Assembly: GCA_002747325.1 (NCBI GenBank)
Contig: PDOZ01000029.1
Location: 34,566-98,565, forward strand
From: Rhodobacterales bacterium
Lineage (GTDB): Bacteria; Pseudomonadota; Alphaproteobacteria; Rhodobacterales; Rhodobacteraceae
DNA: 64,000 bases
Direction of reading: 5' to 3'
The notes below the pieces were generated by a model. That model searched no databases. It saw only the letters and a list, made by a program, of their open reading frames with translations, and was not told the DNA's origin. Shown here one piece after another: positions 17,650 through 62,507 of the stretch. A program made the position numbers and the translations under genes. Within the stretch, counting starts at the first letter, position 1, and every line of letters starts with the position of its first letter.

Positions 17650-17655
17650 ACGATC

Positions 17656-17795
17656 AAGGCTCCCCTATAGCGAAATCGCTTTAATCTGTATTATCGAGCA
17701 TCAAGATTCACGTTCGAAATCGGCAGGATGCTGACCCCGAGGCAGGGAATTTTGATTCAGATTTAGCGATTTCCGCTCTAAACGGGAGCCTTTTT
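17656..17795. repeat. Long imperfect palindrome A (MITE/REP-like), also a terminator
   Basis: The arms are AAGGCTCCC (17656-17664), AAATCGCT (17673-17680) and AATCTG (17683-17688) on the left, mirrored by CAGATT (17758-17763), AGCGATTT (17765-17772) and GGGAGCCTT (17784-17792) on the right. Five T follow the right arm, so it can act as terminator for the DUF1013 gene. The core CTGTATTATCGAGCATCA (17686-17703) and TGATTCAGATTT (17753-17764) resemble the palindrome at 29.95 kb. Confidence 0.65.
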
Positions 17796-25167: not shown

Positions 25168-25297
25168 TATTAGTCTCCCAGGCAGATGCCAACATGGTTG
25201 CACGCGCCGGATCACAAAGCAACGACCGGCAAAGAAAATCCAGCGACGTTAACCTCCCGTTCACCAATCTCGCGCAAAATGGCGACAAGCAGCGAAA

Positions 25298-44578: not shown

Positions 44579-44598
44579 AGCGTGAAAACCCCAAACCC

Positions 44599-44627
44599 GG
44601 AGGGCGCCCCGCGCCCTCCTTTCTTTT
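44599..44627 (+). terminator. Rho-independent terminator after phoA
   Basis: GGAGGGCGC (44599-44607) pairs perfectly with GCGCCCTCC (44611-44619) around a CCC loop, followed by TTTCTTTT. It isolates phoA from the downstream glycerophosphodiesterase operon. Confidence 0.9.
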
Positions 44628-44708
44628 ACCCCCTATTTCATGGATTCATTGAAAATTTTCCGCTAGAGAACCCAAAGAGCGGCCCCATCGGTCGTCAAGG
44701 GAGGGGTT

Positions 44709-46505
44709 ATGCGCAGTATCATTTCAAGCGCCTGGCGCGCACGCGGCGCCATTTTTTCCATTCATCTGGTGATGAGCATTCTGGCCGTTGCCATTATCGG
44801 ACCGTTGGTCGGGTTTTCGGTGCAACTCGGCGTGTCGCTGTCCGGCAAAGGCGCGTTAACCGATTTTGACATCGCGAAATTCCTCTTCTCCCCGTTAGGG
44901 CTTATCGTTCTGATCGTGCTGGCGGCGATTATCCTCACCGCTGCGGCGCTGGAACTGGCGGCGCTGCTGATCGCTCTGCGCGACGGAGGCAGCGTTGCGG
45001 GACCGTTGGCACGGCGTTTGCCTGCGCTTCTGGCCCTCACGGCGCAACTGGTGGTTCGGGTTCTGCTGCTGGTTCTGCCCTTTGCAGCCATCATTGCCAT
45101 CATCGTTTTCAGCCATATCGGCGCCTACGACATCAACTATTACCTGAGCAAAATGCCGCCGGAATTTGTCCGCGCCATCCTGTATTCAGCGCCGCTACTG
45201 CTAATCGCCATCGGCTTGCTGGCGTGGTCGCTCGCGGGTTGGGTCATGGCGCTGCCGCTGGTTCTGTCCGGCCACGCAGCGGGCGCAGCGATCAAGGAAA
45301 GCACACAGCTAACACGCAGCAACCGGCGCAAGGTTGCGATGGGGCTGTTCATCTGGGCCATCGTGACGCTGGTGATTTCCGCGCTGATCGGCGCGCTGAT
45401 GCGCGGGGCGATTGTGCTGCTGATGCCGCCGGTCACGGCGGGGCTGGGAACCGTCGCCATCATGGGGCTGGTCAGCCTGCTAATCTGGGCCGGGGCGAAC
45501 CTTCTGACCGGAGCGATCAGCGCGGGGCTTCTGGCTGCGGCGGTCGATAATCTGGCCGCGCGGCTGATCCCCGAATGGGAACGCGCCCGCCCCGCATACG
45601 TTCCCGGCGCGCGGCGCAGAATGGCATTGCTGGTTGGTGCGGTTGCCGTGTTCGGCGCCGTCACAACCGGCTGGAACCTGATGCGCGGCGCCGCCCCGCG
45701 CGACGACGTGGCCATCATCGCCCATCGCGGCGCAGCGGGCGCGCGGCCCGAAAACACCATCGCCGCAATGAAAGAAGCGCTGGCGCAAGGGGCGGACTGG
45801 CTCGAAATCGACGTGCAGGAAGACGCGACCGGCCGGGTCGTTGTTGCCCATGACAGCGACTTCATGAAGCTGGCCGACAACCCCCTGACCGTCTGGGACG
45901 CCACCCCGGAAGCACTGGCGCAGATCGACGTCGGCAGTTGGTTCGACCCCGCCTATGCGGACGAACGCGTGCCGACCCTGCGCGATGTGTTGGAACTGGC
46001 GCGTGGCAAGGCCGGGGTTGTGGTCGAACTGAAATATTACGGCCATGACGAACAACTCGCCGCCCGCGTGGCGCAGATTGTCGAGGAAACCGGCATGGTC
46101 GAGGCGACGCAATTCATGTCGCTCAAGCCCAAACAGGTCGCCGATATGCGCGCGACCCGGCCCGGCTGGCCGGTGGGCCTGCTCGCGGCGACCTCGATCG
46201 GCGACCTGTCCGATTACGACGCCGATTTCCTCGCCGTCAGCACCGGCGCCGCCAGCCGCAGCTTCATCGCAGACGCACAGGACGCGGGCAAGAAAGTCTA
46301 TGTCTGGACGGTGAACGACCCGCTTGACATGGCGCAGATGCTGTCGCGCGGGGTGGACGGGCTGATCACCGACGAGCCGGGGCTGGCCCGCGACGTCATG
46401 GCCGAACTGGCGAACCTGACCACCGGCCAGCGCCTGATGCTGGAGCTTGCCGCCCTGTTCGGCATGGACGCTTCCGACAAAACCTACCGCGACGAAAGTC
46501 CGTAA
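44709..46505 (+). CDS. Glycerophosphodiester phosphodiesterase with N-terminal membrane domain
   Basis: The 598-residue protein has an N-terminal half of several membrane segments (about residues 15-320, GPDPase membrane domain type) and a C-terminal GDPD domain with AHRGAAGARPENT, EIDVQ and VVAHDSDF, the catalytic and metal-binding residues. It hydrolyses glycerophosphodiesters from phospholipid breakdown to glycerol-3-phosphate. Placed directly after phoA and in one operon with a phospholipase A2-like gene, it fits phosphate scavenging. Confidence 0.92.
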   Translation: MRSIISSAWRARGAIFSIHLVMSILAVAIIGPLVGFSVQLGVSLSGKGALTDFDIAKFLFSPLGLIVLIVLAAIILTAAALELAALLIALRDGGSVAGPLARRLPALLALTAQLVVRVLLLVLPFAAIIAIIVFSHIGAYDINYYLSKMPPEFVRAILYSAPLLLIAIGLLAWSLAGWVMALPLVLSGHAAGAAIKESTQLTRSNRRKVAMGLFIWAIVTLVISALIGALMRGAIVLLMPPVTAGLGTVAIMGLVSLLIWAGANLLTGAISAGLLAAAVDNLAARLIPEWERARPAYVPGARRRMALLVGAVAVFGAVTTGWNLMRGAAPRDDVAIIAHRGAAGARPENTIAAMKEALAQGADWLEIDVQEDATGRVVVAHDSDFMKLADNPLTVWDATPEALAQIDVGSWFDPAYADERVPTLRDVLELARGKAGVVVELKYYGHDEQLAARVAQIVEETGMVEATQFMSLKPKQVADMRATRPGWPVGLLAATSIGDLSDYDADFLAVSTGAASRSFIADAQDAGKKVYVWTVNDPLDMAQMLSRGVDGLITDEPGLARDVMAELANLTTGQRLMLELAALFGMDASDKTYRDESP

Positions 46506-48030: not shown

Positions 48031-48672
48031 ATGACCCGCCGCAAAGACAGCTCCAACACGCGCGACGCCTTGATCGAAGCCGGGCTGTATCTGTTCGGCA
48101 CCAAGGGGTTTGAGGCCACATCAACCCGCGCGATCGCCGAGAGGGCCGGGGCCAATGTTGCCTCCATCGCCTATTACTTCGGCAGCAAAGCCGGGCTGCG
48201 CCGGGCGTGTTCTGAAGCGATTGCGACGCGCATTGGCAGCGTTATCGCGCCCTTCGATGCCGCGCCGGTGCCGGATACACCGGAAGCCGCGCGCGCCGAG
48301 ATGCGGGCCGCTCTGCGCGCCTTTGTTGGCTTCATCGCCGGCACCCCTGCCGCGAAGAACATTGTCACTTTCATCCTGCGCGCCCTATCGGAGCAGGACG
48401 ACACCGCCGACTTCTTTTTCGAGCGGATTTTCCTGCCGCGCCACCAACGCTACTGTGCGCTGTGGTCCATCGCCACCGGGCAACCAGCCGATGCCGATGA
48501 GGTCAAACTGACCGTGTTCGCGCTGATCGGGCAGGTGATTTATTTTCGCCTCGCCGAACCAATCGTGACGCAGCGCATGGGCTGGTCCGCCTTCGGGCGG
48601 GACGAAGTCGGGGCGCTGACCGACACTTTGCTTGAAAACCTCGACGCCTGTCTTGAACGGAGCCGCAAATGA
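48031..48672 (+). CDS. TetR family regulator, CecR (YbiH)-like
   Basis: The 213-residue protein has an N-terminal TetR helix-turn-helix (TSTRAIAERAGANVASIAYYFGSKAGL) and a C-terminal domain of the DUF1956 type. In E. coli CecR represses itself and the ybhGFSR exporter; here the same kinds of genes follow in one operon. An inverted-repeat operator sits just upstream. The next start overlaps the stop (ATGA). Confidence 0.88.
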   Translation: MTRRKDSSNTRDALIEAGLYLFGTKGFEATSTRAIAERAGANVASIAYYFGSKAGLRRACSEAIATRIGSVIAPFDAAPVPDTPEAARAEMRAALRAFVGFIAGTPAAKNIVTFILRALSEQDDTADFFFERIFLPRHQRYCALWSIATGQPADADEVKLTVFALIGQVIYFRLAEPIVTQRMGWSAFGRDEVGALTDTLLENLDACLERSRK

Positions 48673-49622
48673 CCTTTCTATGCAGCCTGCCCCTGATCGC
48701 CAGCCTTTTGACAAGCTGCACACCGCCGCCCTTCGCCACGGGCTATGTCGAGGGGGAATACACCCTCGTGGCGCCGGTTGAGATTGCGCAGATCGGGGCG
48801 CTGGCGGTGGCGCGGGGGGACCGGGTGCCCGCCGGGACGGTGCTGGTCGAGATGGAGCGGCGCGATGCGGAGATTGCGCTGGCGGAAGCGGATGCCAATC
48901 TTGCGCAGGCGCGCAGCGGTTTGTCCGATCTGCTCGAAGGGGCGCGCCCGGCGGAAATTCAGGTCATCGAAGCCAATCTCGCTTCTGCCCGGCTGCAAGC
49001 GGAGGAAGCGGCGCGCACATTGGCGCGGGTTGAAAAGCTTGCCGGGAGCGGTGTTGCGACCGATGCGCAGTTCAAAGACGCGCAGACCGCGGCGCAGGTT
49101 GCCGAAGCGCGCGTGGCACAGATCGCGGCGCAGCTTGAAGTCGCCCGCCTTCCGGCCCGTCCGCAGACCATCGCCCGCGCCGAAGCCGCCGTTGCCGCCG
49201 CCGAAGCGATGCGCGAACGGGCGCATTGGCGGCTGGAGCAACGCAGCCTTTCTCTGTCAACACCCGTCACCGTGTTCGATGTCATCCGCCGCGAGGGCGA
49301 AATCGCCGGACCTGCCGCGCCGATCCTTTCCGTGCTGCCAGACGGTGCGGTCAAATTGCGTCTCTATGTGCCGGAACCAAGCTTTGCGGCGATTGCGGTT
49401 GGCGATGTGCTGCATGTGGAATGTGACGGCTGTGCAGATGGTCTTTCCGCCCGCATCAGTTATGTTTCGGACGCGCCCGAGTTTACGCCCCCGGTGATCT
49501 ATTCGCTCGAAAACCGGCAAAAGCTGGTATATCTCGTTGAGGCGCGCCCGGAGGGGGAACATGCGCTGCGGCCCGGTCAGATCGTGAGCGTCGCCTTGCC
49601 GGGAGCGGATCATGGCAAGTGA
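48669..49622 (+). CDS. HlyD family periplasmic adaptor (YbhG-like)
   Basis: The 317-residue protein begins with a short signal and lipobox-like LLTSC, followed by biotinyl-lipoyl-like and long alpha-helical hairpin regions rich in Ala, Glu and Arg (about residues 75-185), typical membrane-fusion adaptors. It would link the ABC permease to an outer-membrane channel. It overlaps the ABC ATPase gene by 11 bases. Confidence 0.88.
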   Translation: MTFLCSLPLIASLLTSCTPPPFATGYVEGEYTLVAPVEIAQIGALAVARGDRVPAGTVLVEMERRDAEIALAEADANLAQARSGLSDLLEGARPAEIQVIEANLASARLQAEEAARTLARVEKLAGSGVATDAQFKDAQTAAQVAEARVAQIAAQLEVARLPARPQTIARAEAAVAAAEAMRERAHWRLEQRSLSLSTPVTVFDVIRREGEIAGPAAPILSVLPDGAVKLRLYVPEPSFAAIAVGDVLHVECDGCADGLSARISYVSDAPEFTPPVIYSLENRQKLVYLVEARPEGEHALRPGQIVSVALPGADHGK

Positions 49623-50538
49623 AGACGCCATCTTCGTGCGCGATCTGAGCAAGCGCTTTGGCGACAAGACGGTGGTCAACGAGATCAGCATGTCGGTGCG
49701 CAAGGGCGAGATCATGGGGTTTCTCGGCCCTAATGGTTCCGGCAAGACCACGACGATCCGCCTGCTATGCGGCCTGCTGGAACCGGATCAGGGCGAAGGC
49801 ACGGTGCTGGGCCATGACATCCGCAGCGAACGCGACGCCATCAAGCGCAAGGTCGGCTACATGACCCAGCGGTTTTCGTTCTACGAAGACCTGACCATCG
49901 CGGAGAATCTGCGCTTTGTCGCCGGGCTTTACGACATGAAAAACCGGCGCGCCGCGGTGCATGATACGCTCAATGACCTCGGACTTCTGAGCCGGAAAAA
50001 CCAGCTTGCCGGGGCGCTGTCCGGCGGTTGGAAACAGCGACTGGCGCTGGCGGCCTGCATCATGCACAAACCGGATCTGCTGATGCTCGACGAGCCGACC
50101 GCCGGGGTTGATCCCAAGGCGCGGCGGGAGTTTTGGGACGAAATCCATGCGCTTGCGCAGGGCGGGCTGACCGTGCTGGTATCGACGCATTACATGGACG
50201 AGGCCGAACGCTGCCACCGCATTTCCTATATTTCTTACGGCAACCTGATCGCCAAGGGCACGGTGCGCGAGGTGGTGCGCAATGCGGGCCTGACCACAAT
50301 GGTTCTGAGCGGGGAGGGGCTGTCGCAGGCGGCAGCGGCATTGCGCGACGCGCCCGGCGTTGAACAGGTCGCCCCCTTTGGCGCGACGCTGCACGTCGTC
50401 GGCTCTGACAAAGAGGCGCTGCAAAGCTCCGTCGCCCGTATCGCCGCACAAACCGGCAGTAATGCCGCTCCGGCGGAAACCAGCCTTGAGGACGTATTTA
50501 TTCAACTCATGGGCGCTTCGCAGGACAACATGCAATGA
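49612..50538 (+). CDS. ABC transporter ATP-binding protein (YbhF-like, single domain)
   Basis: The 308-residue ATPase has Walker A GPNGSGKTTT, signature LSGGWKQRLALA and Walker B LLMLDEPTAGVD followed by a DUF4162-like C terminus. E. coli YbhF has two ATPase domains in tandem; this protein has one. It overlaps the adaptor and permease genes and so is tightly coupled with them. Confidence 0.92.
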   Translation: MASEDAIFVRDLSKRFGDKTVVNEISMSVRKGEIMGFLGPNGSGKTTTIRLLCGLLEPDQGEGTVLGHDIRSERDAIKRKVGYMTQRFSFYEDLTIAENLRFVAGLYDMKNRRAAVHDTLNDLGLLSRKNQLAGALSGGWKQRLALAACIMHKPDLLMLDEPTAGVDPKARREFWDEIHALAQGGLTVLVSTHYMDEAERCHRISYISYGNLIAKGTVREVVRNAGLTTMVLSGEGLSQAAAALRDAPGVEQVAPFGATLHVVGSDKEALQSSVARIAAQTGSNAAPAETSLEDVFIQLMGASQDNMQ

Positions 50539-51656
50539 GCCGCTTCTTTTCCTTCTCCCGCCTCTGGGCGCTGCTGGTCAAGGAAAGCATTCAGATGCGC
50601 CGCGACCGGATCACCTTCGCCATGATGCTCGGCATCCCGCTGCTGCAATTGCTGCTGTTCGGCTTTGCCATCAATACCGATCCGAAGGAGCTACCCGCCG
50701 CGCTGGTGGCCCCGACACAGGATCGCTTCACCCGCTCCATGGTCAGCGCCCTTGAACTGACCGGCTATTACCGCTTCATCGCCCCCGACGCCACCGCCAC
50801 CGAGGCCGAAGCGATGATCGCGCGCGGCGATGTAGCTTTCGTGGTGACGGTTCCGACCGATTTCGGTCGGCTTATCGAGCGGGGCGACCGTGCAAAGCTT
50901 CTGATTGAGGCCGATGCCACCGATCCTTCCGTTGCATCCGGCGCCATCTCTACCCTGTCCACCATCGCCAGCTCCTCTCTCTTGCGCGAGATCGGCCCGG
51001 TATCGGCCCCCTCGCCGGTCGAAATCGTGGTGCATCGACGCTATAACCCCGAGGGCATCACGCAATACAACATCGTGCCGGGCTTGCTGGGGGTGATTTT
51101 GCAACTGACCATGGTGGTGATGACCTCCATGGCGCTGACCCGCGAGACCGAACGGGGCACGATGGAAAATCTGCTGGCCATGCCCGCCAAACCGTTTGAA
51201 ATCATGTTGAGCAAAATCCTGCCCTACCTTGCGGTGAGCGCGGTTCAGGTCACAGTGGTTCTGATCCTCGCCCGGCTTATCTTTCATGTTCCCTTTGTCG
51301 GGGCGCTGCCGCTTCTCCTGGCGGGGGTGTTCGTATTCGTGTTGGCGCTGGTCACGCTGGGCTATCTGATCTCCACCATCGCGCGCAGTCAGATGCAGGC
51401 GATGCAGCTCAGCTTTTTCTTCTTCCTGCCGTCAATGCTGCTCTCCGGCTTCATGTTTCCCTTTCGCGGCATGCCCCAATGGGCGCAGTATCTCGGCGAG
51501 ATTTTCCCCCTGACCCACTTCCTGCGCCTCATCCGCGCCGTCATGCTGAAAGGCGCCGACTTTCAAGCCGTCGCCAGCTCGTTCACCGCTCTGCTGGGCT
51601 TCGCTGTTGTCCTGACCGTGGCCGCGCTCCTGCGTTTCCGCAAGACGCTGGATTAA
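50535..51656 (+). CDS. ABC-2 type permease (YbhS/YbhR-like)
   Basis: The 373-residue permease has an N-terminal membrane segment, a periplasmic domain of about 140 residues and five C-terminal hydrophobic segments with ETERGTMENLLAMP, a hallmark of ABC-2 exporters. Only one permease gene is present, whereas E. coli has two (ybhS, ybhR), so it would act as a homodimer. It is the last gene of the TetR-controlled exporter operon. Confidence 0.9.
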   Translation: MSRFFSFSRLWALLVKESIQMRRDRITFAMMLGIPLLQLLLFGFAINTDPKELPAALVAPTQDRFTRSMVSALELTGYYRFIAPDATATEAEAMIARGDVAFVVTVPTDFGRLIERGDRAKLLIEADATDPSVASGAISTLSTIASSSLLREIGPVSAPSPVEIVVHRRYNPEGITQYNIVPGLLGVILQLTMVVMTSMALTRETERGTMENLLAMPAKPFEIMLSKILPYLAVSAVQVTVVLILARLIFHVPFVGALPLLLAGVFVFVLALVTLGYLISTIARSQMQAMQLSFFFFLPSMLLSGFMFPFRGMPQWAQYLGEIFPLTHFLRLIRAVMLKGADFQAVASSFTALLGFAVVLTVAALLRFRKTLD

Positions 51657-51964: not shown

Positions 51965-53965
51965 ATGTCGCAAGGCAGTGTCAGAGAAAAGCATCAACAG
52001 GGTTTCGAAGAGCTGAACCAGTATTGGTCCCGGCTGGACATGCTGGAGCAGGCCATTGAAGAATTCAGCGAATCCGCGCTCAGCTTTGTGGAAGAACCGA
52101 TTGAGCGCGTTCTGGAGAAAATCCGGGCGTTCGAGCCTTCGGTCAGCATTATCGGTCAGATCAAGGCCGGTAAAAGCACGCTGCTGAATGCGCTGGTGGG
52201 GCAGGTTGACCTGCTGCCCTCCGACGTCAATCCCTGGACCTCGGTCATCACGGCCTTGCACCTCAACAGCCGGTATCGCCCCGAAAACACCCGCGCCCTG
52301 TTCCGGTTTTTCGACCAGCACGAATGGGACCGGCTGATCGCCACGGGTGGCCGGCTGGGCGAAATGGCCGCGCGCGCCGGATTTGAAGGCGAGGCCGATG
52401 AGGTCCGCAATCAGGTCATCGAGATGCGCCAGACCACCGAGGCTCGGCTGGGCGATGAATTTCAGGACCTGATCGGCGCGAGCCATGCTTTTGCGAGTTT
52501 TGATCGCAGCATTATTGACCGCTATATCTGCTACGGCGACCCATCGGAACTGGAGCAGGGGTCGGAAGAAGGTGTCTATGCCGACCTGACCAAGACCGCT
52601 GACCTTTACCTCGAAGCGGAAGGGTTGCCGCGCGGCCTGTGTCTGCGCGATACGCCGGGCGTCAACGATACTTTCATGATGCGCGAGCAGATCACCCTGA
52701 ACGCCATCAGCGACAGCCGGGTCTGCGTTGTCGTGCTGTCGGCGCATCAGGCGCTTTCGACGATGGACATCGCCCTGCTGCGGATCATTTCCGCCGTCGA
52801 AGCGCGCGAGGTGCTGATCTTTGTCAACCGCATCGACGAATTGCCTGACCCGGCAGGGGAGCAGAAAAAAATCCGCGCTTCGATCCAGAAAACGCTGGCA
52901 CGGGTTGGCTTGAATCAGGACATCGACATCGTATTCGGCAGCGGATACTGGGCAAATTATGCCCTTTCCGAAAGAGGCAAGCTGCCCCAGCGCAGCCTCG
53001 ACGCGCTTTTGAGCCTGCATAAGGGGGAATTCCTGTCGTCCCCGGAAGCGCTGCGCAATGCCGCGCTTGAATCCTCGGGCATTCTCGAACTGCACCGGGC
53101 CATTGCCAAACGCATTGTCGAAGGGGTCGGCGCGGCGTTCATGCGCGACATCGACCGCGAAATCGAAACCATCATCGAGATGAGCGAATCCGTCGAAAAC
53201 GTGGATGCGCTATACCCTCAGGGGGCGAGCAATACGTCCATGACGCGCGGCGATCTGATGATGAAGCTGGCCGATGTGTTGCAACAGGTCACGTCCAATT
53301 TCGATGCCGCTGCAGACGAGGTGCGCGAACAGTTGCACGAACGTCTGGGGCATGCACAGGAGACATTCGTGGATTCCGCGGTCGATGCCTTGCGGTCTCA
53401 TATCGCCATGTATGGCGAAACCGGCGCCTGGGAACACGACCCGATGGGGCTGCGAATGGCGATGAAAACGGCCTTCAACTCGGCGTGCAGCAAGCTGCGG
53501 CGCGAGGGGGAAACCGGGTTCATGGCCGTGCTGGACGGTGTTGAAGAGATTTTGCAAAACGATCTGAACGTGTTTCGCAATACCAACACGATCGAGTTCC
53601 CGGATCAGCCTGTCCATCAATCCCCGACGGTTCTGGCGCGGATGCTCTCGCTGGATCTCGGCGGGAATTTCTGGAGCAATATGTGGGTCGCGGCGGGCGC
53701 ACAGAAACTGTTGCGGATCGGGTCAGGCAAGAGGATCGAAAAGAAATACCGTGGTATCATTATCGACGAAACCACCCCTCTTATCGAAGAGCTGATGACC
53801 GAGTTCTTTGACCCTGCCGTCAACGCGACGCGGGACATCATCACCACCTTTGCACTTGATCAGGGCAAGTTCTGCGAAGCCATGCTGGAGCGGATGAACC
53901 GCGCCGACACGGCTCAGGGTTCTGGCAAGGCGGGGTCGTATGGAAACAGGAGGGCTTCCGCATGA
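51965..53965 (+). CDS. Large dynamin-like GTPase L1
   Basis: The 666-residue protein is a bacterial dynamin-family GTPase. G1 is GQIKAGKS (residues 64-71), the switch motif LPSDVNPWTSV follows (residues 84-94), G3 is DTPG (229-232) and G4 is NRID (288-291). A long helical C-terminal half follows, with a tryptophan-rich LDLGGNFWSNMW near 563-574 that could contact membrane. No transmembrane segment is seen. I chose ATG 51965 over an upstream GTG because AGAGAGG precedes it. Its stop overlaps the start of S1. It is the first of three large paralogues in the cluster. Confidence 0.88.
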   Translation: MSQGSVREKHQQGFEELNQYWSRLDMLEQAIEEFSESALSFVEEPIERVLEKIRAFEPSVSIIGQIKAGKSTLLNALVGQVDLLPSDVNPWTSVITALHLNSRYRPENTRALFRFFDQHEWDRLIATGGRLGEMAARAGFEGEADEVRNQVIEMRQTTEARLGDEFQDLIGASHAFASFDRSIIDRYICYGDPSELEQGSEEGVYADLTKTADLYLEAEGLPRGLCLRDTPGVNDTFMMREQITLNAISDSRVCVVVLSAHQALSTMDIALLRIISAVEAREVLIFVNRIDELPDPAGEQKKIRASIQKTLARVGLNQDIDIVFGSGYWANYALSERGKLPQRSLDALLSLHKGEFLSSPEALRNAALESSGILELHRAIAKRIVEGVGAAFMRDIDREIETIIEMSESVENVDALYPQGASNTSMTRGDLMMKLADVLQQVTSNFDAAADEVREQLHERLGHAQETFVDSAVDALRSHIAMYGETGAWEHDPMGLRMAMKTAFNSACSKLRREGETGFMAVLDGVEEILQNDLNVFRNTNTIEFPDQPVHQSPTVLARMLSLDLGGNFWSNMWVAAGAQKLLRIGSGKRIEKKYRGIIIDETTPLIEELMTEFFDPAVNATRDIITTFALDQGKFCEAMLERMNRADTAQGSGKAGSYGNRRASA

Positions 53966-55071
53966 GGCGCAGTCTATGGGGCATGCCCGGTGCATCGCCG
54001 ACGGCCAATACCGGAAAAACCCGCAAGCCGCGGATCATGGTCGGCGGTGAATTCAGCGCGGGCAAGACCCAGCTGATCAACGGGCTGACCGGGCGCGACG
54101 TTCTGCCGTCGAATGTCACCGCAACCGCCTTGCCGCCGGTCTGGCTGGTTGGCGGCGCGGCGGGGCTGGCGCAGGTTGATACATCGGGCGCCATGCATGA
54201 CATCGGAAGCCTTACGGACGTTGAGCTGGACTCCACGCATTTCTGCATCATGGGGCATTCGGCGCCGGTGCTTGAGAAGCTGGATATCATTGACACGCCC
54301 GGCAGTTCCGATCCCAACATGGCTGCCGCGACGTGGCAAAGGATGCTGAACTACGCCGACGCAATGATCTGGTGCACCAACGCGACGCAGGCCTGGCGGC
54401 AAACGGAAAACGCCGTGTGGCAGGCAATGCCCGAACGTCTGCGCAAGAATGCCATGCTGGTCATCACCCATGCCGACCTCATGAGCGATCAATCCAATTC
54501 CGGGCGCGTTTTACAACGCGTTGAGCGCGAAGCGGCGAAGTTTTTCGATACCTTCCTGATGGTGTCGCTGCTGGACCCGGCCGATATCGAAGGCATTCGC
54601 GAGCATGTGCAGGATCTGAGCGAACGGCTGGAAATCAGCGGGGCCGAGGCGCCAATGGTGGATCAGTTCACGAACACGCACAAGGTGGATACGGAGGCTC
54701 TCAAGCCCGCGCTTCAGGATCGGGCGATGCAGATGATCCGACCGCGCCGTGTTACGGTGCGCGAACCGCAGCCCGAAACCCCGCCCCGCAGCGCCTCCAA
54801 GGTGGTGCCGATCAGTGTCACCGCCGCCGTCGCGAATGATGAGGGCAGAGGCGATGCGCGCACCCTGTGGAACAGCCTGATGGCGCATGTCGATCGCAAC
54901 GATCCCGCCGCCATTTTGAAAGCTGCCGACCGGCTCGTGTCGATTCTGGACAGCGCCCCCGGAAAAAGACCGGAACGCAGCCCGTCGGACGCGCCCTCTT
55001 CGGGGAAGATAGACGACCATTCTGGCAACCGCCGCGGCACCCTGGCCGCAGCCGCAGGACAGCATGAGTGA
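53962..55071 (+). CDS. Small dynamin-type GTPase S1
   Basis: The 369-residue protein has G1 GEFSAGKT (residues 29-36), the switch motif VTATALPPVWL, G3 DTPG (111-114), the conserved CTNATQAWRQTE, and G4 THAD (169-172). About 150 residues after the GTPase domain are Pro/Ser/Arg-rich and low in predicted structure. Its start overlaps the stop of L1 (ATGA), so the pair is translationally coupled. It lacks the long helical stalk of the large members and resembles S3 more than S2. Confidence 0.85.
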   Translation: MRRSLWGMPGASPTANTGKTRKPRIMVGGEFSAGKTQLINGLTGRDVLPSNVTATALPPVWLVGGAAGLAQVDTSGAMHDIGSLTDVELDSTHFCIMGHSAPVLEKLDIIDTPGSSDPNMAAATWQRMLNYADAMIWCTNATQAWRQTENAVWQAMPERLRKNAMLVITHADLMSDQSNSGRVLQRVEREAAKFFDTFLMVSLLDPADIEGIREHVQDLSERLEISGAEAPMVDQFTNTHKVDTEALKPALQDRAMQMIRPRRVTVREPQPETPPRSASKVVPISVTAAVANDEGRGDARTLWNSLMAHVDRNDPAAILKAADRLVSILDSAPGKRPERSPSDAPSSGKIDDHSGNRRGTLAAAAGQHE

Positions 55072-55080
55072 GGCCCAGTC

Positions 55081-57204
55081 ATGAAAATTGCACCTAATCA
55101 ACGTCAGGAACTGGACTTCCTCCGGGACACGCTGGACAATCTGGGAAAAACCGCTGGCCGCGATAGCCGGCAAACCTTTCGCGAATTGCGCTACCGTCTG
55201 GACAGCTGGGCCGCGCGGGTAGCGGTGATCGGTCAGGTCAAGGCCGGGAAGTCGACCTTCCTTAACGCATTCCTGCACAATCACGATTTCCTGCCCTCTG
55301 ATGTCAATCCATGGACATCGGTGGTCACAAACATTCGCATCAACCTGCCCAACGATCCGATTTCGGGCGGCAATTTCAAATTCTTTGCCGAACGCGACTG
55401 GAACGAGATCGTTGCAGGGGAATCGAAGATCCGCAAGCTCACCGAACAGCTTCTGCCGGGCTTCGATACGGCATTGCTGCGCCGTCAGAGCGAGGAGATG
55501 CGCACGCGCGCGGAAGCCCAGTTAGGCATGAATTTTACCAAACTGCTGGGCCAGACGCACGAATACGATTATGTCACCTCGGACCTGCTCAAGGCCTATG
55601 TTTGCGCCGGTCCCGGCACGACCGTACACGGCGCGAATGTCGAAACCATCGGTCGCTATTCAACGCTGACCAAGGTCGCCAATCTCTACATGCGCCTGCC
55701 GGAATTTCAGGTTCCGACCATCATTACCGACACGCCCGGCGTCAACGATCCGTTTCTGGTGCGCGATGAATTTACCTGTCGCAGTCTCGACAAATCCGAC
55801 GTCTTTGTCGTCGTGCTGTCGGCGCATCAACCGCTGACCGATGTCGACGTTGCCCTGATCCGCATCCTCGCCAAACAGGACTACAAGGATGTCTTGATCT
55901 TCATCAACCGGATCGACGAGCTGGACGACTACGACACGGACGTGCCGCGTGTGCTGGAAGATGTGAGCCTGCGGTTGCACCGGGCCATTCCCGACATGGA
56001 GTTCTCCATCGTCGTCGGCTCCGGTTATATGGCCGATCTGGTAATGCAGACGGGTGAGGAGGCCGAAGCCGAGCGCGAAGCGCTGGATGATGTCCGGCTG
56101 GCCCGGTATCTCAAGACGCGTTACGGCCATGTGCCCGCGGAACGCGACGACCGGCTGTGGCTCGCCTCGGGCATCGACGCGGTCAAGGCTGAAATTTCCG
56201 ACGTGATCGACAACGGCGTGGGGCGGCAGCAACTGGCTCAGATCGGCAGCGACATCCGCGCCGAACTCGAAGGGGTGTTGTTCGTCAACCGCCGCGAGCG
56301 GGAAACACTGCGCACCCAGATCGCACATATCAATGGCGAAGTCGCGCTGCTGGCCGTCGAAGAAATGCAGGAGCAGATCGACGACATCAAGAAGTTCCAG
56401 TCCGATCTGGAACAGCATGTTGATATGGCCGAAGGGCAGATTGACAAACTGGTCAACAAAGCCTGGGCGCGGCTGGAAGGCCGGTTGCTTTCGACAATCG
56501 AGACATTCGTCGACGATCAGAAGGAAGCGTTCGAGGAGCATATCTTCGCGAACACCGTGCGCGGCGCCGCCAAAAAGAGCCTGAATGTCGATCTCTTGCC
56601 GTTGCAGAGCGCAATGGAAGAGGAAGTCAGCAAGGCGTGGAACACTTCGCGGAGCGGCACGGATGTGATCCTCAACAACTGTCTGGTTGCCTGCCGCAAC
56701 ATGCTGAAAGACAAATTCGACGAAGAGGGCGAAAGCATCACGCTGGACAACCTGCCGCATGACAGCTTCGTTTCGACCCTGACGCTCGCCAAGCGGTCGC
56801 TTCAGGTGGAGATGATGAGCAAGCGCAGCTGGGCTTTCTGGCGCAAACCCGAATTCGACGTCAACAAGATGGTCGCGGCCCTGCGCATCATCGCCGCTGA
56901 GGAACTGCGCCCGGCGATGGAGAAGATCCTTGCCGCTTTCAACGAAGCTCAGGTCGAGCGGGCCTCGGCAGGCACCGATCGTATCCGCGTTGTGCTGCGC
57001 ATGTCTGATACATCGCTGAACGAGCGCATTCGCAGTTTGAAAAAAGAAATGATCGAATACCAGAAGGTCGCAACCGATCCGGACTTCCGGCAAAGTGTCG
57101 TGATGCGCGTTCAAAGTCAGATGGAAGTGATCGAACGCCGTCTTATCAACCTATCCGCCATCGAGAGCTCCCTGATGCGCTCATCCATAGAAAGGGCTGC
57201 CTGA
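55081..57204 (+). CDS. Large dynamin-like GTPase L2
   Basis: The 707-residue paralogue of L1 has G1 GQVKAGKS (residues 51-58), LPSDVNPWTSV, G3 DTPG (217-220) and G4 NRID (276-279), followed by a long helical region. The helical part contains a coiled-coil-like stretch with Glu/Gln/Lys (about residues 410-465). Its tryptophan-rich stretch (KRSWAFWRKPEF) near the C terminus is weaker than in L1 and L3. It begins nine bases after S1 and is followed by S2. Confidence 0.88.
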   Translation: MKIAPNQRQELDFLRDTLDNLGKTAGRDSRQTFRELRYRLDSWAARVAVIGQVKAGKSTFLNAFLHNHDFLPSDVNPWTSVVTNIRINLPNDPISGGNFKFFAERDWNEIVAGESKIRKLTEQLLPGFDTALLRRQSEEMRTRAEAQLGMNFTKLLGQTHEYDYVTSDLLKAYVCAGPGTTVHGANVETIGRYSTLTKVANLYMRLPEFQVPTIITDTPGVNDPFLVRDEFTCRSLDKSDVFVVVLSAHQPLTDVDVALIRILAKQDYKDVLIFINRIDELDDYDTDVPRVLEDVSLRLHRAIPDMEFSIVVGSGYMADLVMQTGEEAEAEREALDDVRLARYLKTRYGHVPAERDDRLWLASGIDAVKAEISDVIDNGVGRQQLAQIGSDIRAELEGVLFVNRRERETLRTQIAHINGEVALLAVEEMQEQIDDIKKFQSDLEQHVDMAEGQIDKLVNKAWARLEGRLLSTIETFVDDQKEAFEEHIFANTVRGAAKKSLNVDLLPLQSAMEEEVSKAWNTSRSGTDVILNNCLVACRNMLKDKFDEEGESITLDNLPHDSFVSTLTLAKRSLQVEMMSKRSWAFWRKPEFDVNKMVAALRIIAAEELRPAMEKILAAFNEAQVERASAGTDRIRVVLRMSDTSLNERIRSLKKEMIEYQKVATDPDFRQSVVMRVQSQMEVIERRLINLSAIESSLMRSSIERAA

Positions 57205-57217
57205 GCAGTAAACTGAG

Positions 57218-58021
57218 ATGTTCTTCAAACCTTTGAAAAATACGACCCGGATTGTGATTTGTGGCGAGGTGAACGCGGGTAAATCAACGGTTCTGAACGC
57301 ATTGATGAGACAGCGATTGCTGCCGGATAATCTCGGCGCAACGATCCGTCCGGCGGTATCCGTCAGATGGCAACGCGAGGCGGGGATCACAGCATGGTTC
57401 CCGGATGGCATATGCCGCACCATCGCGCCCGGCGACCTGGATGCGCTGCGCGGTGCGGAATACATTGTGATCAACAGCAACATGCAGCATTTGCGGCCCT
57501 TCGAGTTGGTCGAGTTGCCGATGACAACTGCGGACGATCTGACGAAGGACGACTTTGCCAACGTGCAATCGGCGGCGGGGCTTTTATGGGTCACGATCGC
57601 CTCTCAGGCATGGCGTCTGACGGAACGTCGCATTCTTGACGAATTGGCGCATGTACGCCCGGCCCACGGGCTGCTGGCCATTTCACGCGCGGACAAGTTG
57701 CGCCGGGAAAGCGATCTCGCCAAGCTGAAACAACGGGTCGCAACAGAAACCCTTGATTACTTTGACTCGGCGCATTTCTGTCGCGGCAGCCCCGATTTGC
57801 TTGAGCAGTCCATCCATTCCCGCGAGGCTTGGGAACAAACCGGAGCGCCCGGAATGCTGACCGAGATGGAACGCATTGCGGCGGAAAAGCGTGATATCAT
57901 AGGGAAGGCAACGCCAAAAAACCGGCACGGAAAAGCCATGATTGCCCGGATGGAAAACCACGAAATTTCCACAATAGAGGCACAAACCCACCCAAATGTC
58001 TCAATACGTTCAACAATGTGA
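57218..58021 (+). CDS. Small dynamin-type GTPase S2, degenerate G3
   Basis: The 267-residue protein has an intact P-loop GEVNAGKST (residues 16-24) and G4-like SRADK, but at the G3 position the DTPG of its relatives reads ELPM (residues 99-102), so the DxxG Asp and Gly are lost. The motif TIASQAWRLTE is kept. There is little sequence after the GTPase domain. It probably binds nucleotide but hydrolyses poorly or not at all. A 147-base gap follows before L3. Confidence 0.83.
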   Translation: MFFKPLKNTTRIVICGEVNAGKSTVLNALMRQRLLPDNLGATIRPAVSVRWQREAGITAWFPDGICRTIAPGDLDALRGAEYIVINSNMQHLRPFELVELPMTTADDLTKDDFANVQSAAGLLWVTIASQAWRLTERRILDELAHVRPAHGLLAISRADKLRRESDLAKLKQRVATETLDYFDSAHFCRGSPDLLEQSIHSREAWEQTGAPGMLTEMERIAAEKRDIIGKATPKNRHGKAMIARMENHEISTIEAQTHPNVSIRSTM

Positions 58022-58168
58022 TCTTCGCATCTTTCGGATCAGAAAGACCCGGAGCGGCGGTCGCGCGCGCTTCATGGTGGGGCGTCGCAGAATACATGGA
58101 GGGTAGGGCTCGGTCCGGCAAGACCGATCATCGGCTGAACCTTCCGGAGCGGAGCAGAGGGAACGAAG

Positions 58169-60253
58169 ATGAAGGATATTGCACTTGAGACCGCATCAGA
58201 TGGGGCAGAAGCCGGCGCGAAAAAACCGTTGAATCGCGAGCTTCTGACCATGGGGTCTGAAACCATCCGGCCGTTCTTTGCAACGCTCGACAAACTGAAG
58301 TCGGATCTGCAAGCCCGGATCAGCAAGGGCGACCCGTTTCTGACGCGCAGGCTGAACGCGCTTATTCGCAGGATTGACAAATTCGAAGCCTCGGTGACGC
58401 TGGTCGGTCAGGTCAAGGCCGGCAAAACCGCCCTTGCCAATGTGATGAGCGGCAATGTTGGCCTTTTGCCTTCTGACGTAAACCCCTGGACTTCGGTTGT
58501 GACCTCGCTGCACATCAACGCACGCAACGCCGATCCGAAAACCCGCGCGGCGTTCAATTTCTTCGACGACCACGAATGGGATACGATGGTCAAGGGCGGC
58601 GGACGTTTCGGAGAGCTTGCGGGCCGTGCCGGTGCCGACGACGAAATGGAAAAGCTGCGTCGCCAGATTGAAGAGATGCGCGAAGCCGCCCGCGAGCGGT
58701 TGAGCGGCAAATTTGAAGCGCTGCTGGGCAAGACCCACAAATACGGCTACGTCGATCCGGAGTTGATGGAGCGTTATGTTTGTCTGGGCGACCCGGATGA
58801 ACTCGAATTTAACCCGGAAAGCCAGCAGGGACGGTTCTCTGATCTGATCAAATCGGCCGAGATTTGGCTGGATGCGCCGGAACTGGGCGGCTCTCTTCTG
58901 GTGCGCGACACGCCGGGGGTCAACGATACCTTCATGGTGCGTGAGCAGATCACCATTCGCGCGCTGCGTGGCTCCAAGGTCTGTGTGGTTGTTCTGTCGG
59001 CGCATGAAGCGCTGAACACGACCGACCTTGCGCTGACCCGCCTGATTTCCAACTACGAAAACCGCCAGTTGATTCTATTCGTCAACCGTATCGACGAACT
59101 GGCGCGCCCCGGAGAACAGGTGCCCGAAATCCGTGACAGCATCCGCTCGACATTGAAGCGTTATAAAGCGCTCAAAGATGTCAGTATCATTTTTGGCAGC
59201 GCCCGTTGGGCCGAGATGGCCCTGACCAGCGATTATTCATTGCTGGACGAAGAGGCGGAAGCCGCCGCCAAGGACTGGGCGGCACAAAAAGAGTTCAAGC
59301 GGGAAAAAGACCGCGACCGGCTGTTCTGGAGAATGTCGGGCGTCCCCGAACTGATGAAGCAGATCAACGAACGCATCGTCGAAGATTCCGGGCAGCGCCA
59401 TCTGGCCTCGATCCTGCTGGCAATGCAGAATATCTCGAACGAGATTTCGATCAGAAATGCGCTTGGAATCAACGCAAAAGCCAACCGGAAACCGCCCAGC
59501 ATCAATATTTCCGAGCTTCGCCATGAGGTGAATGACGTCGCCAAAGACGCGCAGGAAAAGCTGGAAGTCATGCTCGCAACGCTGCGGGACGACAATCTGA
59601 TGCCGGCTCTGAACAAGGTGAAAAGCGATTACGTGGACCGTGCGCAAGCCGCGCTTCTGGAACATCTGCGCTCAAACGCGCAGGATGAAACCTGGAAGTT
59701 CAACTCTTCCGGGCTGCGGCTGGTTCTGCGTACCAGCTATGACCGCTTTGCCGCAGATACAAAGACCGCAGTCGAAGGGCATTTTGACGACACCGCAGAC
59801 CGGCTGAGCGGAATATATATCGACACGCTCGGCGCTCAGGTTGATGGTTTTGAAATCCATCCGCCGATGGTTCCGAAGGTGCCGCCGCCGGTCGGGTTGG
59901 GTAGAACCATTGCGATTGACCTTAGCGGCAACTGGTGGAGCCGCTGGTGGAAGCGCCGCCGGGGCCTAAACAACCATGCCGCAGAATACAGAGCGCTGAT
60001 TGATGAAGAGATCAACACGATCATCGTCGATCTGAGGGACACTCAGGTCCGCGACATGTTTGCAGATATTGAGGCGGTGCTTGCGCAATTCCTGACCGAG
60101 CAGACCCAGTCCATCCTTGATCTGGTGCGCAGCATTTCGATGCACGCCCCCAATGCGGACGACGCGCAGGAAGAGGCACACGACTTTACGGCCATGTATA
60201 AAGCCGCTCTTGAGCTGATGGACGAAAACGCGACACAGGCGGGGAGGGAGTGA
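58169..60253 (+). CDS. Large dynamin-like GTPase L3
   Basis: The 694-residue paralogue has G1 GQVKAGKT (residues 80-87), LPSDVNPWTSV, G3 DTPG (247-250) and G4 NRID (306-309), and a helical C terminus. A tryptophan/basic stretch IDLSGNWWSRWWKRRRG (583-599) matches the equivalent in L1 and is a good membrane-contact candidate. It has a longer N terminus than L1 and L2. The S3 start is one base after its stop. Confidence 0.88.
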   Translation: MKDIALETASDGAEAGAKKPLNRELLTMGSETIRPFFATLDKLKSDLQARISKGDPFLTRRLNALIRRIDKFEASVTLVGQVKAGKTALANVMSGNVGLLPSDVNPWTSVVTSLHINARNADPKTRAAFNFFDDHEWDTMVKGGGRFGELAGRAGADDEMEKLRRQIEEMREAARERLSGKFEALLGKTHKYGYVDPELMERYVCLGDPDELEFNPESQQGRFSDLIKSAEIWLDAPELGGSLLVRDTPGVNDTFMVREQITIRALRGSKVCVVVLSAHEALNTTDLALTRLISNYENRQLILFVNRIDELARPGEQVPEIRDSIRSTLKRYKALKDVSIIFGSARWAEMALTSDYSLLDEEAEAAAKDWAAQKEFKREKDRDRLFWRMSGVPELMKQINERIVEDSGQRHLASILLAMQNISNEISIRNALGINAKANRKPPSINISELRHEVNDVAKDAQEKLEVMLATLRDDNLMPALNKVKSDYVDRAQAALLEHLRSNAQDETWKFNSSGLRLVLRTSYDRFAADTKTAVEGHFDDTADRLSGIYIDTLGAQVDGFEIHPPMVPKVPPPVGLGRTIAIDLSGNWWSRWWKRRRGLNNHAAEYRALIDEEINTIIVDLRDTQVRDMFADIEAVLAQFLTEQTQSILDLVRSISMHAPNADDAQEEAHDFTAMYKAALELMDENATQAGRE

Positions 60254-60254
60254 C

Positions 60255-61487
60255 ATGACTTCTGATACCATGACCAAACGCTATGTGACTCAGACTCAGT
60301 TTGACCGTCTTGCCGATTGGAGCATGCGCAAGCCCGTGATCGCACTCATGGGGGAATTCAGCTCTGGAAAATCGACCCTGATGAACCTGTTGATCGGGCA
60401 GGATATCCTGCCAACTCAGGTAACGGCGACACGGCTTCCGCCCGTCTGGCTGACCTATGGCACCGACGCGCCGTATCGCATGGATCACAATGGCCGTAAG
60501 CACAAGGTCAACCTGAAGAACCACGATTCCATTCCAATTCGGACAACCAGTTATATCCGCCTTTTCATTGAGGCCGACATCCTGAAGCAATGCGATCTGA
60601 TCGACACGCCCGGGATCTCTGACCCCAGCATCAAGATGGAATACTGGATTCGCACCATCCGTTACGCCAACGCCGTAATGTGGTGTACCCATGCCGGACA
60701 GGCCTGGCGCGAGAGCGAACGCGGGGCCTGGGAATCGCTTCCGGCCCGTTTGCGGGAAACCTCGATCCTGCTCGTCACACGCAAGGACAAGATCACCAGC
60801 GAACGCGACCTGCTGAAAATCCAGCGCAGGCTGGAACGCGAAACGCAGGACCTGTTCAACACGCGCATGTTTATTTCCCTGACCAATGCCCTCAAGGCCG
60901 TTGAGCAAAAGGATGACGAGGCGTGGGAAAAGAGCGGCGGCAAGGATTTCAAGGAAATGCTCGAGAAAATCGTCGAGGGCATCTATGTGCAACGCAGTTA
61001 CATGCTTTCGCGCTATGTAGTCGGCACCGCCCCGGCGGTACAACCGCCCCAGCCGGACGCACAGGAACCCGCAATTCCCGCGGCAAGCGCAGGCATGGAA
61101 AGCGCCGCCGAAAACGGGGCTGACACCGAAGCGCGAAACGGCGTTGCCGCGGATGCGCCTGACATGAACGATTATCGCCTGAGTAATCTGAAGGCGTATC
61201 ATGAGAATTATTCAAACGTCAGCCTGTCAGATTATCGCCTGAAAAACCCGTCTTTGTATGGGGCGGCGGAACCGCGAAATTCGGCGCCAACGCCAAGCGT
61301 ATCCGAAAGCCGCAATGAGGCACCGGCAGGCACGAGCAGAACGGAAAAAATTCGTGCCGTATGCGCGCAAATTCGCAAACAATACGACATGCCGAAAACC
61401 GCAGCCCCTTCTCAGGCCGCTGAGGATGTAGTCGACGAAATGAACGAGGATGCTGCTGTAATACGGCAAGCGAGAGAGACAGTGTAG
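60255..61487 (+). CDS. Small dynamin-type GTPase S3 with variable C-terminal tail
   Basis: The 410-residue protein has G1 GEFSSGKS (residues 33-40), VTATRLPPVWL, G3 DTPG (117-120), CTHAGQAWRESE and G4 TRKD (175-178). After the GTPase domain, roughly residues 255-400 are Ala/Pro/Glu-rich, with a short duplicated DYRL (in NDYRLSNLKAY and SDYRLKNPSLY). This tail looks disordered and may recruit partners. It is the last gene of the cluster. ATG at 60270 is an alternative start. Confidence 0.85.
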   Translation: MTSDTMTKRYVTQTQFDRLADWSMRKPVIALMGEFSSGKSTLMNLLIGQDILPTQVTATRLPPVWLTYGTDAPYRMDHNGRKHKVNLKNHDSIPIRTTSYIRLFIEADILKQCDLIDTPGISDPSIKMEYWIRTIRYANAVMWCTHAGQAWRESERGAWESLPARLRETSILLVTRKDKITSERDLLKIQRRLERETQDLFNTRMFISLTNALKAVEQKDDEAWEKSGGKDFKEMLEKIVEGIYVQRSYMLSRYVVGTAPAVQPPQPDAQEPAIPAASAGMESAAENGADTEARNGVAADAPDMNDYRLSNLKAYHENYSNVSLSDYRLKNPSLYGAAEPRNSAPTPSVSESRNEAPAGTSRTEKIRAVCAQIRKQYDMPKTAAPSQAAEDVVDEMNEDAAVIRQARETV

Positions 61488-61975
61488 CGAGTTGAATTGA
61501 AAAATGCAGGCAAGACGTCAAATATGTCTACCCACATTTATTCTTACACGGACCAGGCTGAGCCATCAGAACGGTCTGCATGTCGGGTATGAAGCGGGTT
61601 CTGGGCACATACCCGAAACGGCAGCGATCAAGCTTTCCGCCGGGTTGCGGAGCGTGTTGAAAAGCGCAAAGGCACCGACGCTTTGCTTCAATGAGCCCGT
61701 TCAGAGACAACCAAACCAGCGGGGCAGAACAGGAGGCCGAGGTGTCGAGGCGCATAAACGCCAGAGCGCCCCTGCACCCCGAACCGACTGCCTCAACCGA
61801 TTTGCCAGAACACGCGGCGCCCCGCGCCCTGTCTTGCAACAAAACGCGTCACGCCGGGCAATTCCCCGCCGTGACCCCTTAATGGCGCAACACCTGTTCC
61901 AACACCTGTTTACGCCTCAACTCGCCGGAAAAACACACCTTGATCCTCCGGCTTTGCCCCGAAAAGGAAATGAAA
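61488..61975. other. 488-base intergenic region after the dynamin cluster
   Basis: Open frames exist on both strands but their codons (AGA, AGG, ATA frequent) and composition do not look like this genome's genes, and no family is recognised. It may hold a degenerate gene; a short minus-strand stretch around 61.63-61.75 kb reads as protein-like in one frame but is broken by stops. No terminator or promoter stands out. Confidence 0.45.
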
Positions 61976-62377
61976 ATGTCACTTGATAAAGCTCTTCAGA
62001 CCGCAATGTCGGGCATTCCCGAATGTCTGGCCTCAGGCTATGTTGATATGGATACCGGCATGCTGCTTGGCGTGCAAACGGTTGACTCGCACCCGCAAGA
62101 AGTCCTCGACCTTCTCGCAGCGGCAACTGCGGACCTGTTTCAGGGCGCGTCGGTCGTGCAGATTGAACAGATCTTCAAAAACGCCCGTGGCACTCAAAAC
62201 GATGACCATTATTTCAATGAAATCCTCGTGTTCTCGGACAACCTGATCCACATGTTCATGCGGGCCAAACAATATCCGGGCCACGTTTGCACCTTCGTAT
62301 GCCGCCGGAGCGCGAACCCCGGAATGGTAATGACCAAAGCACGGATGGCTCTGGACAACGTATCCGGCGCCCTTTGA
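61976..62377 (+). CDS. Small protein with predicted Roadblock/LC7-like fold
   Basis: The 133-residue protein reads as helix, two strands, helix, three strands, helix: opening helix, GYVDMDTGMLLGV, HPQEVLDLLAAATADLF, EILVFSDN, IHMFMRAK, TFVCRR, and ANPGMVMTKARMAL. This is the Roadblock/LC7 order, and the last helix resembles it closely. Such proteins regulate small GTPases (MglB) or scaffold kinases. The ATG at 61976 follows AAAAGGA by seven bases; one at 61970 is also in frame. It lies between the dynamin cluster and a globin fusion. The fold is my inference. Confidence 0.6.
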   Translation: MSLDKALQTAMSGIPECLASGYVDMDTGMLLGVQTVDSHPQEVLDLLAAATADLFQGASVVQIEQIFKNARGTQNDDHYFNEILVFSDNLIHMFMRAKQYPGHVCTFVCRRSANPGMVMTKARMALDNVSGAL

Positions 62378-62476
62378 TCCGATCAGAGAACGCGAACAAG
62401 GTTCGTCCCGCCTGACGCGGTGCCGTTGAGTTTCGGGGCCATGCCTCGGCGACACATGACAGGTTTTCATGAAGAC

Positions 62477-62507
62477 CCCGGCTTGCAGCGCAGGCCGGGG
62501 CCTTTTG
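62477..62507 (+). terminator. Rho-independent terminator after the Roadblock-like gene
   Basis: CCCCGGCTTGC (62477-62487) and GCAGGCCGGGG (62491-62501) form an eleven-pair stem with one G-U pair and an AGC loop, followed by CCTTTT. It lies 100 bases after the stop and so suggests the Roadblock-like gene and the globin fusion are separate transcription units. Confidence 0.88.

Follow-up and report, generated by a model that had tools for sequence, protein, structure and literature searches.

Paired dynamin-like GTPases, a candidate pseudo-GTPase, and predicted roadblock-fold proteins linked by gene order in the Rhodobacteraceae

Paired bacterial dynamins, GTPase switches built on roadblock proteins, and Rag-type proteins that join a G domain to a roadblock domain are each known already. 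To our knowledge, how paired bacterial dynamins are activated is mostly open. One study on Campylobacter jejuni describes heterotypic assembly of Cj-DLP1/2 as turning on GTPase activity, liposome binding, and tethering, and treats both partners as dynamins in Cj-DLP1/2, in Streptomyces DynA/DynB, and in the fused DynA (PMC6104087). Other papers give MglB as a roadblock protein acting as a GTPase-activating protein (GAP) (PMC9481161), MfpD as a protein of roadblock fold that may be a GAP (PMC13015309), and Rag/Gtr with Ragulator as a case of G domain and roadblock domain in a single chain (PMC5696360). Here we describe a window, that is, the whole 64,000-nucleotide stretch analyzed from a Rhodobacterales bacterium (Rhodobacteraceae; assembly GCA_002747325.1, 78% complete; contig PDOZ01000029.1, positions 34,566 to 98,565 of the forward strand), which runs to the contig end and encodes six dynamin-like GTPases in three large/small pairs (L1-S1, L2-S2, and L3-S3), followed by a predicted roadblock-fold protein, R. 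In this locus and its relatives, gene order, co-inheritance, and natural fusion connect the dynamin pairs with roadblock proteins and with a conserved, probably dead GTPase (S2). We give an even chance to the reading that the three co-inherited L/S pairs and the predicted roadblock protein form one membrane-tethering or repair machine, with S2 and the roadblock protein as its switch. That reading builds on what the sequences show: the genes are there, L and S are paired in genome after genome, S2 has lost its G3 motif while L keeps its motifs, roadblock-like genes are linked to the pairs, and S2-roadblock fusions occur naturally; each step past gene content and predicted fold we infer. No paper on a dynamin-roadblock combination was found among the literature matches listed, most subscription papers and preprints lying outside the search. 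Throughout, L1 to L3 and S1 to S3 are proteins of the window, and an L followed by three digits (L004, L093, L185, and so on) is a locus label.

The coordinates of the six genes (Table 1) agree with a sequence-only reading of this DNA, which had described six open reading frames (ORFs) on the same strand in the order L1-S1-L2-S2-L3-S3, with overlaps or short gaps between them except for 147 bases between S2 and L3; the junctions are a 4-base overlap and then gaps of 9, 13, 147, and 1 bases. Its call of six dynamin-like genes is likewise borne out, all six proteins exceeding the Pfam Dynamin_N cut-off of 27 bits (35.0 to 57.9 bits). Alignment within the window revealed that the L proteins are mutually paralogous (L1 and L3 36.6% identical over 569 residues, L1 and L2 29% over 545, L2 and L3 36% over 353), as are the S proteins (S1 and S3 39% over 185 residues, S2 and S3 28% over 213, S1 and S2 25% over 177). 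Ratios of nonsynonymous to synonymous substitution (dN/dS) against locus L004 were 0.11 to 0.31 across the six genes, values that are rough given a dS of 0.8 to 1.6. A promoter scan found no promoter-like match in the 147-base gap.

Table 1. Positions in the window of the genes and other features under discussion
Feature	Position	Strand	Basis
L1, dynamin-like GTPase, 666 amino acids (aa) from ATG 51965 (676 aa if started at GTG 51935)	51965..53965	+	Dynamin_N 55.8 bits; G1, G3, and G4 intact
S1, G-domain-only partner of L1, 369 aa, G3 DTPG intact	53962..55071	+	Dynamin_N 43 bits
L2, dynamin-like GTPase, 707 aa	55081..57204	+	Dynamin_N 57.9 bits
S2, small partner of L2, 267 aa, P-loop kept, G3 degenerate (VELPMTTAD)	57218..58021	+	Dynamin_N 37.3 bits
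147-base gap between the quartet L1-S1-L2-S2 and pair 3	58022..58168		ORF coordinates
L3, dynamin-like GTPase, 694 aa	58169..60253	+	Dynamin_N 35 bits; AlphaFold2 model
S3, G-domain-only partner of L3 with long tail, 410 aa, G3 DTPG intact	60255..61487	+	Dynamin_N 48.2 bits
Stretch before R aligning, through a stop, to the linker of the L004 PTP-R fusion; no PTP domain	61841..61975	+	Alignment, score mostly from R itself
R, 133 aa, predicted roadblock/LC7 fold	61976..62377	+	Homologues, AlphaFold2, structure comparison
Terminator-like hairpin of 11 pairs between R and the next gene	62476..62500	+	Weak match
Ferredoxin/FAD/NAD reductase fused to a globin-like domain, cut by the contig end	62687..64000 (start approximate)	+	Pfam Fer2, FAD_binding_6, NAD_binding_1, Bac_globin

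L1 to L3, each with a dynamin-type G domain and with predicted neck and trunk helical bundles, are bacterial dynamin-like proteins, and motifs G1, G3, and G4 were intact in all 40 aligned L rows. The AlphaFold2 model of L3 (pLDDT 79.3, pTM 0.80) matched Cj-DLP1, SynDLP, BDLP, mitofusins, and IniA in structure comparison, and the fold of L is predicted to be of the BDLP/Cj-DLP/mitofusin type. A tryptophan-rich basic stretch of L3 (approximately residues 588 to 600) lies between two long predicted helices in a part of the model of low confidence; this tip of L may enter the membrane. S1 to S3 aligned over the G domain only and, at this level of comparison, lack the neck and trunk bundles; the 42 to 185 residues that they carry beyond residue 225 are 20 to 24% I, L, M, F, V, W, or Y. 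The sequence-only reading was thus right to liken L to the paired bacterial dynamins and wrong to extend the likeness to S, which is a bare G domain and not a full dynamin.

Pairing of L with S was followed in a scan of genome contigs with L3, of which the best 80 of 85 loci were read with flanks of up to 10 kb, some ended by contig ends. These 80 loci carried the names of Rhodobacterales taxa, two being given only as Alphaproteobacteria, and the best named relatives were a Rhodobacterales metagenome-assembled genome and Mesobacterium. L-S pairs occurred throughout, the six-gene order occurred only in the window, L004, and L005, and class 3/a pairs were for the most part not accompanied by pairs 1 and 2. 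In trees built from 37 rows each of L and S, classes 1, 2, 3/a, b/A, and c were congruent: L1 grouped in a class 1 clade with L004, L005, L135, and L093, mirrored by the class 1 clade of S1, and the class 3 clade of S3 likewise mirrored that of L. The S tree held one misframed row (L006_a), which was excluded from the later best-match comparison; there, L and S of multi-pair loci agreed in 179 of 207 cases, with 93.5 expected by chance. Among the 28 disagreements, 27 set a class 2 or class b row against a locus without an orthologue, and the last (L007_b against L080) concerned a long branch. These comparisons support L/S pairs as units. At L007 of Gemmobacter tilapiae (8053-20086), two L-S pairs with R and a protein called fam3 between them were followed by a third, very divergent L-like ORF (approximately 22%).

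Pairs 1 and 2 form a quartet, L1-S1-L2-S2. L2 relatives at E<=1e-40 were present in 101 of 394 genomes of the family and near full length in 14, the window's own included; 10 of these 14 encoded the quartet, which, together with L004 and L093 (an 860-kb plasmid record of Rhodobacter sp. CZR27), makes 12 quartet loci, all retaining the order and close spacing. Families recurrently flanking quartets were few: a putative roadblock gene, Rq (below), transporter-type ABC genes, and a small unknown protein. A small conserved protein of approximately 100 aa (WGPWxxHDGKGCP) was seen after S2 in L185 (6577-6897), L187 (6130-6438), and L189 (6672-7076). Because an L2 relative at E<=1e-40 was found in only 2 of 337 genomes sampled across the class, both from the window's family, the system appears, within this sample, to be a family-level invention. 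The sequence-only reading had suggested that the three pairs might be a single system, and it named conserved order in unrelated genera as a sign in favour and scattering of single genes in relatives as a sign against. The L/S units and the quartet order, at 12 loci, support it in part, whereas the six-gene layout, at 3 loci, does not; conservation was seen within one family, and class 3/a pairs mostly lie apart from pairs 1 and 2.

One member of the quartet is degenerate throughout. G3 of S1 is D-T-P-G in 12 of 12 quartets, and in S2 of the same 12 an E replaces the D and the G is missing (ELPM, ELPL, ELPF, EIPM, EVPM, EVPF, EVPL, ELSF, or ELAC). S2 keeps the P-loop GKS and a G4 of the form xRxD in these quartets; the switch I motif TAT of S1 and S3 is changed in S2, with the second T retained in the window and L185. 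Because G3 is degenerate, S2 is likely a pseudo-GTPase, its loss of hydrolysis being read from the motif, and a conserved one, its dN/dS against L004 being 0.26. Its top profile was Dynamin_N and no Rag/Gtr profile was listed, which sets it apart from the Ras-like G domain of Rag; at 267 aa, window S2 is too short for the C-terminal roadblock-like domain present in some of its relatives. By analogy, we propose S2 to be Rag-like in its working, yet not a Rag GTPase.

The AlphaFold2 model of R (pLDDT 78.4, pTM 0.70) has a roadblock fold and, by Foldseek and VIA-align, matched roadblock/MglB structures, with MglB among the best, as well as the roadblock domains of Ragulator and Rag. Because a Pfam scan gave no match to PF03259 (Robl_LC7) for R or Rq, R is filed as a roadblock-fold protein and not as a member of that family; PDB sequence profiles gave no meaningful match for either protein. 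Homologues of R number 2132 proteins at E<=0.001, which, together with its dN/dS of 0.09 against L004, rules out a chance ORF. The 13 long proteins that hold R comprise 12 PTP-R fusions and a single S2-PTP-R fusion. Distant copies of R adjoined genes with curated Robl_LC7 (PF03259) in all four loci scanned. Two further arrangements were noted: in other proteobacteria (L123-L126), R adjoins a gene for an ABC ATPase fused to a dual-specificity phosphatase, and in a family outside the Rhodobacterales (f38; L128-L133), R-like and Robl_LC7 genes are adjacent, some beside a metallophosphatase gene, with no L or S match seen. Terminator-like hairpins in the region numbered 14 against a shuffle mean of 13.7; there being no excess, the hairpin after R is a weak match.

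Rq (118 to 119 aa) is encoded upstream of L1 in L185, L186, L187, L188, L189, and L191 and after S2 in L192, and it resembles R in profile comparison (Prob 90.8, E 1.2e-6, 113 columns). Of 299 genomes sampled across the phylum, 26 held relatives of Rq at E<=1e-8, almost all of these genomes being from other families, so the link to dynamins is younger than Rq itself. Counting R, Rq, and secure domains, a roadblock gene or domain is present at 9 of the 12 quartets (the window, L004, L135, L185-L189, and L191); L093 and L190 have weak S2 tails only, and no roadblock gene or domain was found at the L005 quartet. Degenerate S fused to a roadblock domain was found in three proteins (L135, L194, and L195), each S-roadblock fusion being known from one genome. 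That of L135 is S2-PTP-R (615 aa; public protein P0140, 610 aa). Those of L194 and L195 scored 33 and 65 bits against an Rq profile built without them, have EVPA and EIQV at G3, and are each encoded after an L2-like gene, the S part of L195 being nearest to S3 by BLAST. Tails of unfused S2 gave a weaker signal: those of L093, L190, and L188 scored 7.2, 4.7, and 3.0 bits against Rq, higher in each case than any of 50 shuffles of the same tail; even so, 4 bits was reached by 4 of the 1850 shuffles overall, and the best of them, at 7.7, exceeded L093 and L190, which makes the signal weak. Among the 16 matches listed, which do not include L187 and L189, the tails of L185, L186, L191, and L192 stayed within their own shuffles. 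A profile of five S2 tails found the held-out tails of L188 (1.5e-6) and L185 (3.2e-5) and no S1 or S3 tail below 1, and a four-sequence S2-tail profile matched Rq with Prob 98.6 and R with just 16.8.

The sequence-only reading ended the cluster at 61487, where R and the ferredoxin-reductase-globin gene still follow, and it did not record R, the degeneracy of S2, or the accessory genes (PTP, ABC ATPase, kinase/FHA/PP2C, and ferredoxin-reductase-globin). The reductase-globin was detected at E<=1e-60 in 7 of 394 family genomes, every one of which had it at an L/S or PTP-R locus (in G761, the L gene is just beyond the fetched stretch). One branch carries genes for PTP, R, fam3, ABC, L, S, reductase-globin, and GFA in varied arrangement: L134 has all eight in that order; L136 lacks L between ABC and S and has an oppositely directed L3-S3 pair; L147 and L148 place reductase-globin and GFA on the other side; L149 has no GFA labelled; and L004 has a fused PTP-R followed by ABC, reductase-globin, and GFA. 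The window retains R and reductase-globin; before R, it encodes no PTP but only a linker-like sequence containing a stop, and the interval from R to the reductase holds no ABC gene. Elsewhere in its genome, 78% complete as assembled, no orthologue of the kinase, PTP, or ABC was found, only generic ABC matches, the best at 46% across 57 residues. In the other branch, which spans Ruegeria, Leisingera, and further genera, there are kinase, FHA, and PP2C genes, a set reminiscent of regulators of the type VI secretion system (T6SS); a T6SS link was rejected, no T6SS product name occurring in stretches L091-L094. Beside this set in Ruegeria (L091 26846-29259) and Leisingera (L094 17478-19822) are two substrate-binding-type proteins, which may be an outside sensor. 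Two families without a Pfam assignment regularly flank L/S pairs, fam3 (approximately 290 aa; L049 14096-14944) and fam6 (approximately 156 aa; L049 9495-9989); as extra roadblock proteins they were rejected, their profiles giving Prob 1.6 and 0.4 against R (8 of 11 rows used for fam6). Just upstream of L1, the window encodes a TetR/CecR regulator, an HlyD adaptor, an ABC ATPase, and an ABC-2 permease (48031-51656), and an RbbA/HlyD exporter is also beside the pair in Leisingera L094. Farther off in the window are a bacterial alpha-2-macroglobulin (1802 aa) adjoining a transglycosylase/transpeptidase penicillin-binding protein (17795-25215, minus strand) and an alkaline phosphatase followed by a membrane glycerophosphodiester phosphodiesterase (43094-46505).

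In the proposed tethering or repair machine, each S would dock on the G domain of the L with which it is paired and set the GTPase cycle of that L. S2, non-cycling or unable to hydrolyze, would be a fixed platform for a roadblock dimer, and that dimer would gate S/L assembly in a way comparable to the control of MglA by MglB or to the part that roadblock domains play in Rag/Ragulator. This docking and switching is proposed because heterotypic assembly activates GTPase and tethering in Cj-DLP1/2 and because MglB is a roadblock GAP. Outside signals (redox, nitric oxide, or phosphorylation state) would enter through modules exchanged between branches, with ferredoxin-reductase-globin, PTP, and ABC ATPase in one and kinase, FHA, and PP2C in the other; oligomers of L would, under stress, join damaged or opposed membranes and seal them. 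To a more specific version we grant somewhat less than an even chance: a Rag/Ragulator-like bacterial switch in which a degenerate dynamin-type S2, joined in trans or in cis to roadblock domains, gates mitofusin-like L/S machines, the exchangeable redox-globin, phosphatase/ABC, or kinase modules signalling the need for membrane tethering or sealing. If the link is real, it would give bacterial membrane remodelling a control circuit open to direct testing, add a large roadblock-fold family that lacks annotation, and provide a counterpart in bacteria of the eukaryotic Rag proteins, in which a G domain is likewise combined with a roadblock.

Two rivals stand out: phage defence, and a module of roadblock and phosphatase proteins that has the dynamins as clients. 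The former, which we consider rather unlikely, holds that L and S seal or sacrifice the membrane upon infection, triggered by the kinase/phosphatase or phosphatase/ABC genes of an anti-phage or conflict system. Such a role would fit the patchy spread (of 394 family genomes, 10 carry the quartet), the 18 plasmid records with L3 relatives, and the slowing of phage lysis by Bacillus subtilis DynA (PMC8844932). In a PADLOC comparison covering L, S, and the kinase, L scored weakly against LeoA/LeoBC and mad8, and the kinase of the Ruegeria-type locus scored against the PD-T4-6 and mad6 defence kinases; however, the matches of L and S were weak and partial (13.7 to 41.7 bits, in a library without cut-offs), and the kinase match is expected of any such kinase. 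No L3 match occurred among 50,697 phage records, which speaks against phage defence and led us to reject a phage origin.

It is unlikely, in our estimate, that R and PTP/ABC are a signalling module of their own, with the dynamin pairs as downstream clients or mere neighbours and R not touching the GTPases. In its favour, in 4 of 4 close cases outside the family, R adjoins an ABC-PTP fusion gene with no L or S match in the stretch read, and 12 of 13 long R-holding proteins are PTP-R fusions. By these cases and by the distant copies beside Robl_LC7 genes, R is older than its dynamin link, which tells against R acting only on S and L. Yet Rq adjoins quartets with no PTP or ABC relative labelled beside it, and in L194 and L195 S is fused straight to the roadblock domain.

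We regard as very improbable a switch for polarity, division, or motility in the manner of MglA/MglB, with L as a localised output and not a membrane sealer. MglB structures are among the best matches of R, MglB is the GAP of MglA (PMC9481161), and zapE, a cell-division gene by annotation, lies approximately 8 kb upstream in Ruegeria conchae (L091); what is probably the same gene block (families 12-17) is found again at a small number of Ruegeria loci, apparently as part of a common genome background. The G domain of S, however, is dynamin-type and not Ras-type, and the annotated recurrent neighbours are kinase, FHA, PP2C, PTP, ABC, reductase-globin, and GFA. Least probable of all is plain tandem duplication, with three pairs acting separately and no common machine: class 3/a and c pairs often lack pairs 1 and 2 and the 147-base gap sets pair 3 off from the quartet, but order and close spacing are kept in 12 quartets, each with one fixed degenerate member.

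Set against known systems, the switch-and-tether machine proposed here is a composite. In Cj-DLP1/Cj-DLP2 of C. jejuni both partners are dynamins; in the window one partner, judged by alignment, is a bare G domain without neck or trunk, and pairs occur two or three together, accompanied by roadblock genes. The predicted fold of L is shared, in structure comparison, with BDLP1 (2j69), SynDLP (7zw6), IniA (6j73), and mitofusins, proteins for which we know of no small G-domain partner or roadblock linkage. LeoABC and MADS, as PADLOC models, show weak profile likeness (L to LeoA/LeoBC and mad8, the kinase to mad6), but the L and S scores are low and partial, and their gene content differs from that of the window locus. 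MglA/MglB of Myxococcus and conservons such as MfpB/MfpD likewise combine a roadblock protein with a small GTPase; both differ from the window, where the small GTPase is dynamin-type and is joined by a third partner, a full dynamin. Rag/Gtr with Ragulator are alike in having a G domain and a C-terminal roadblock domain in one chain, as in the S proteins of L194 and L195, and in the match of the R model to Ragulator and Rag roadblock domains, whereas the G domain of the window type is dynamin-type, degenerate, and bacterial, and S2 and R of the window are separate genes.

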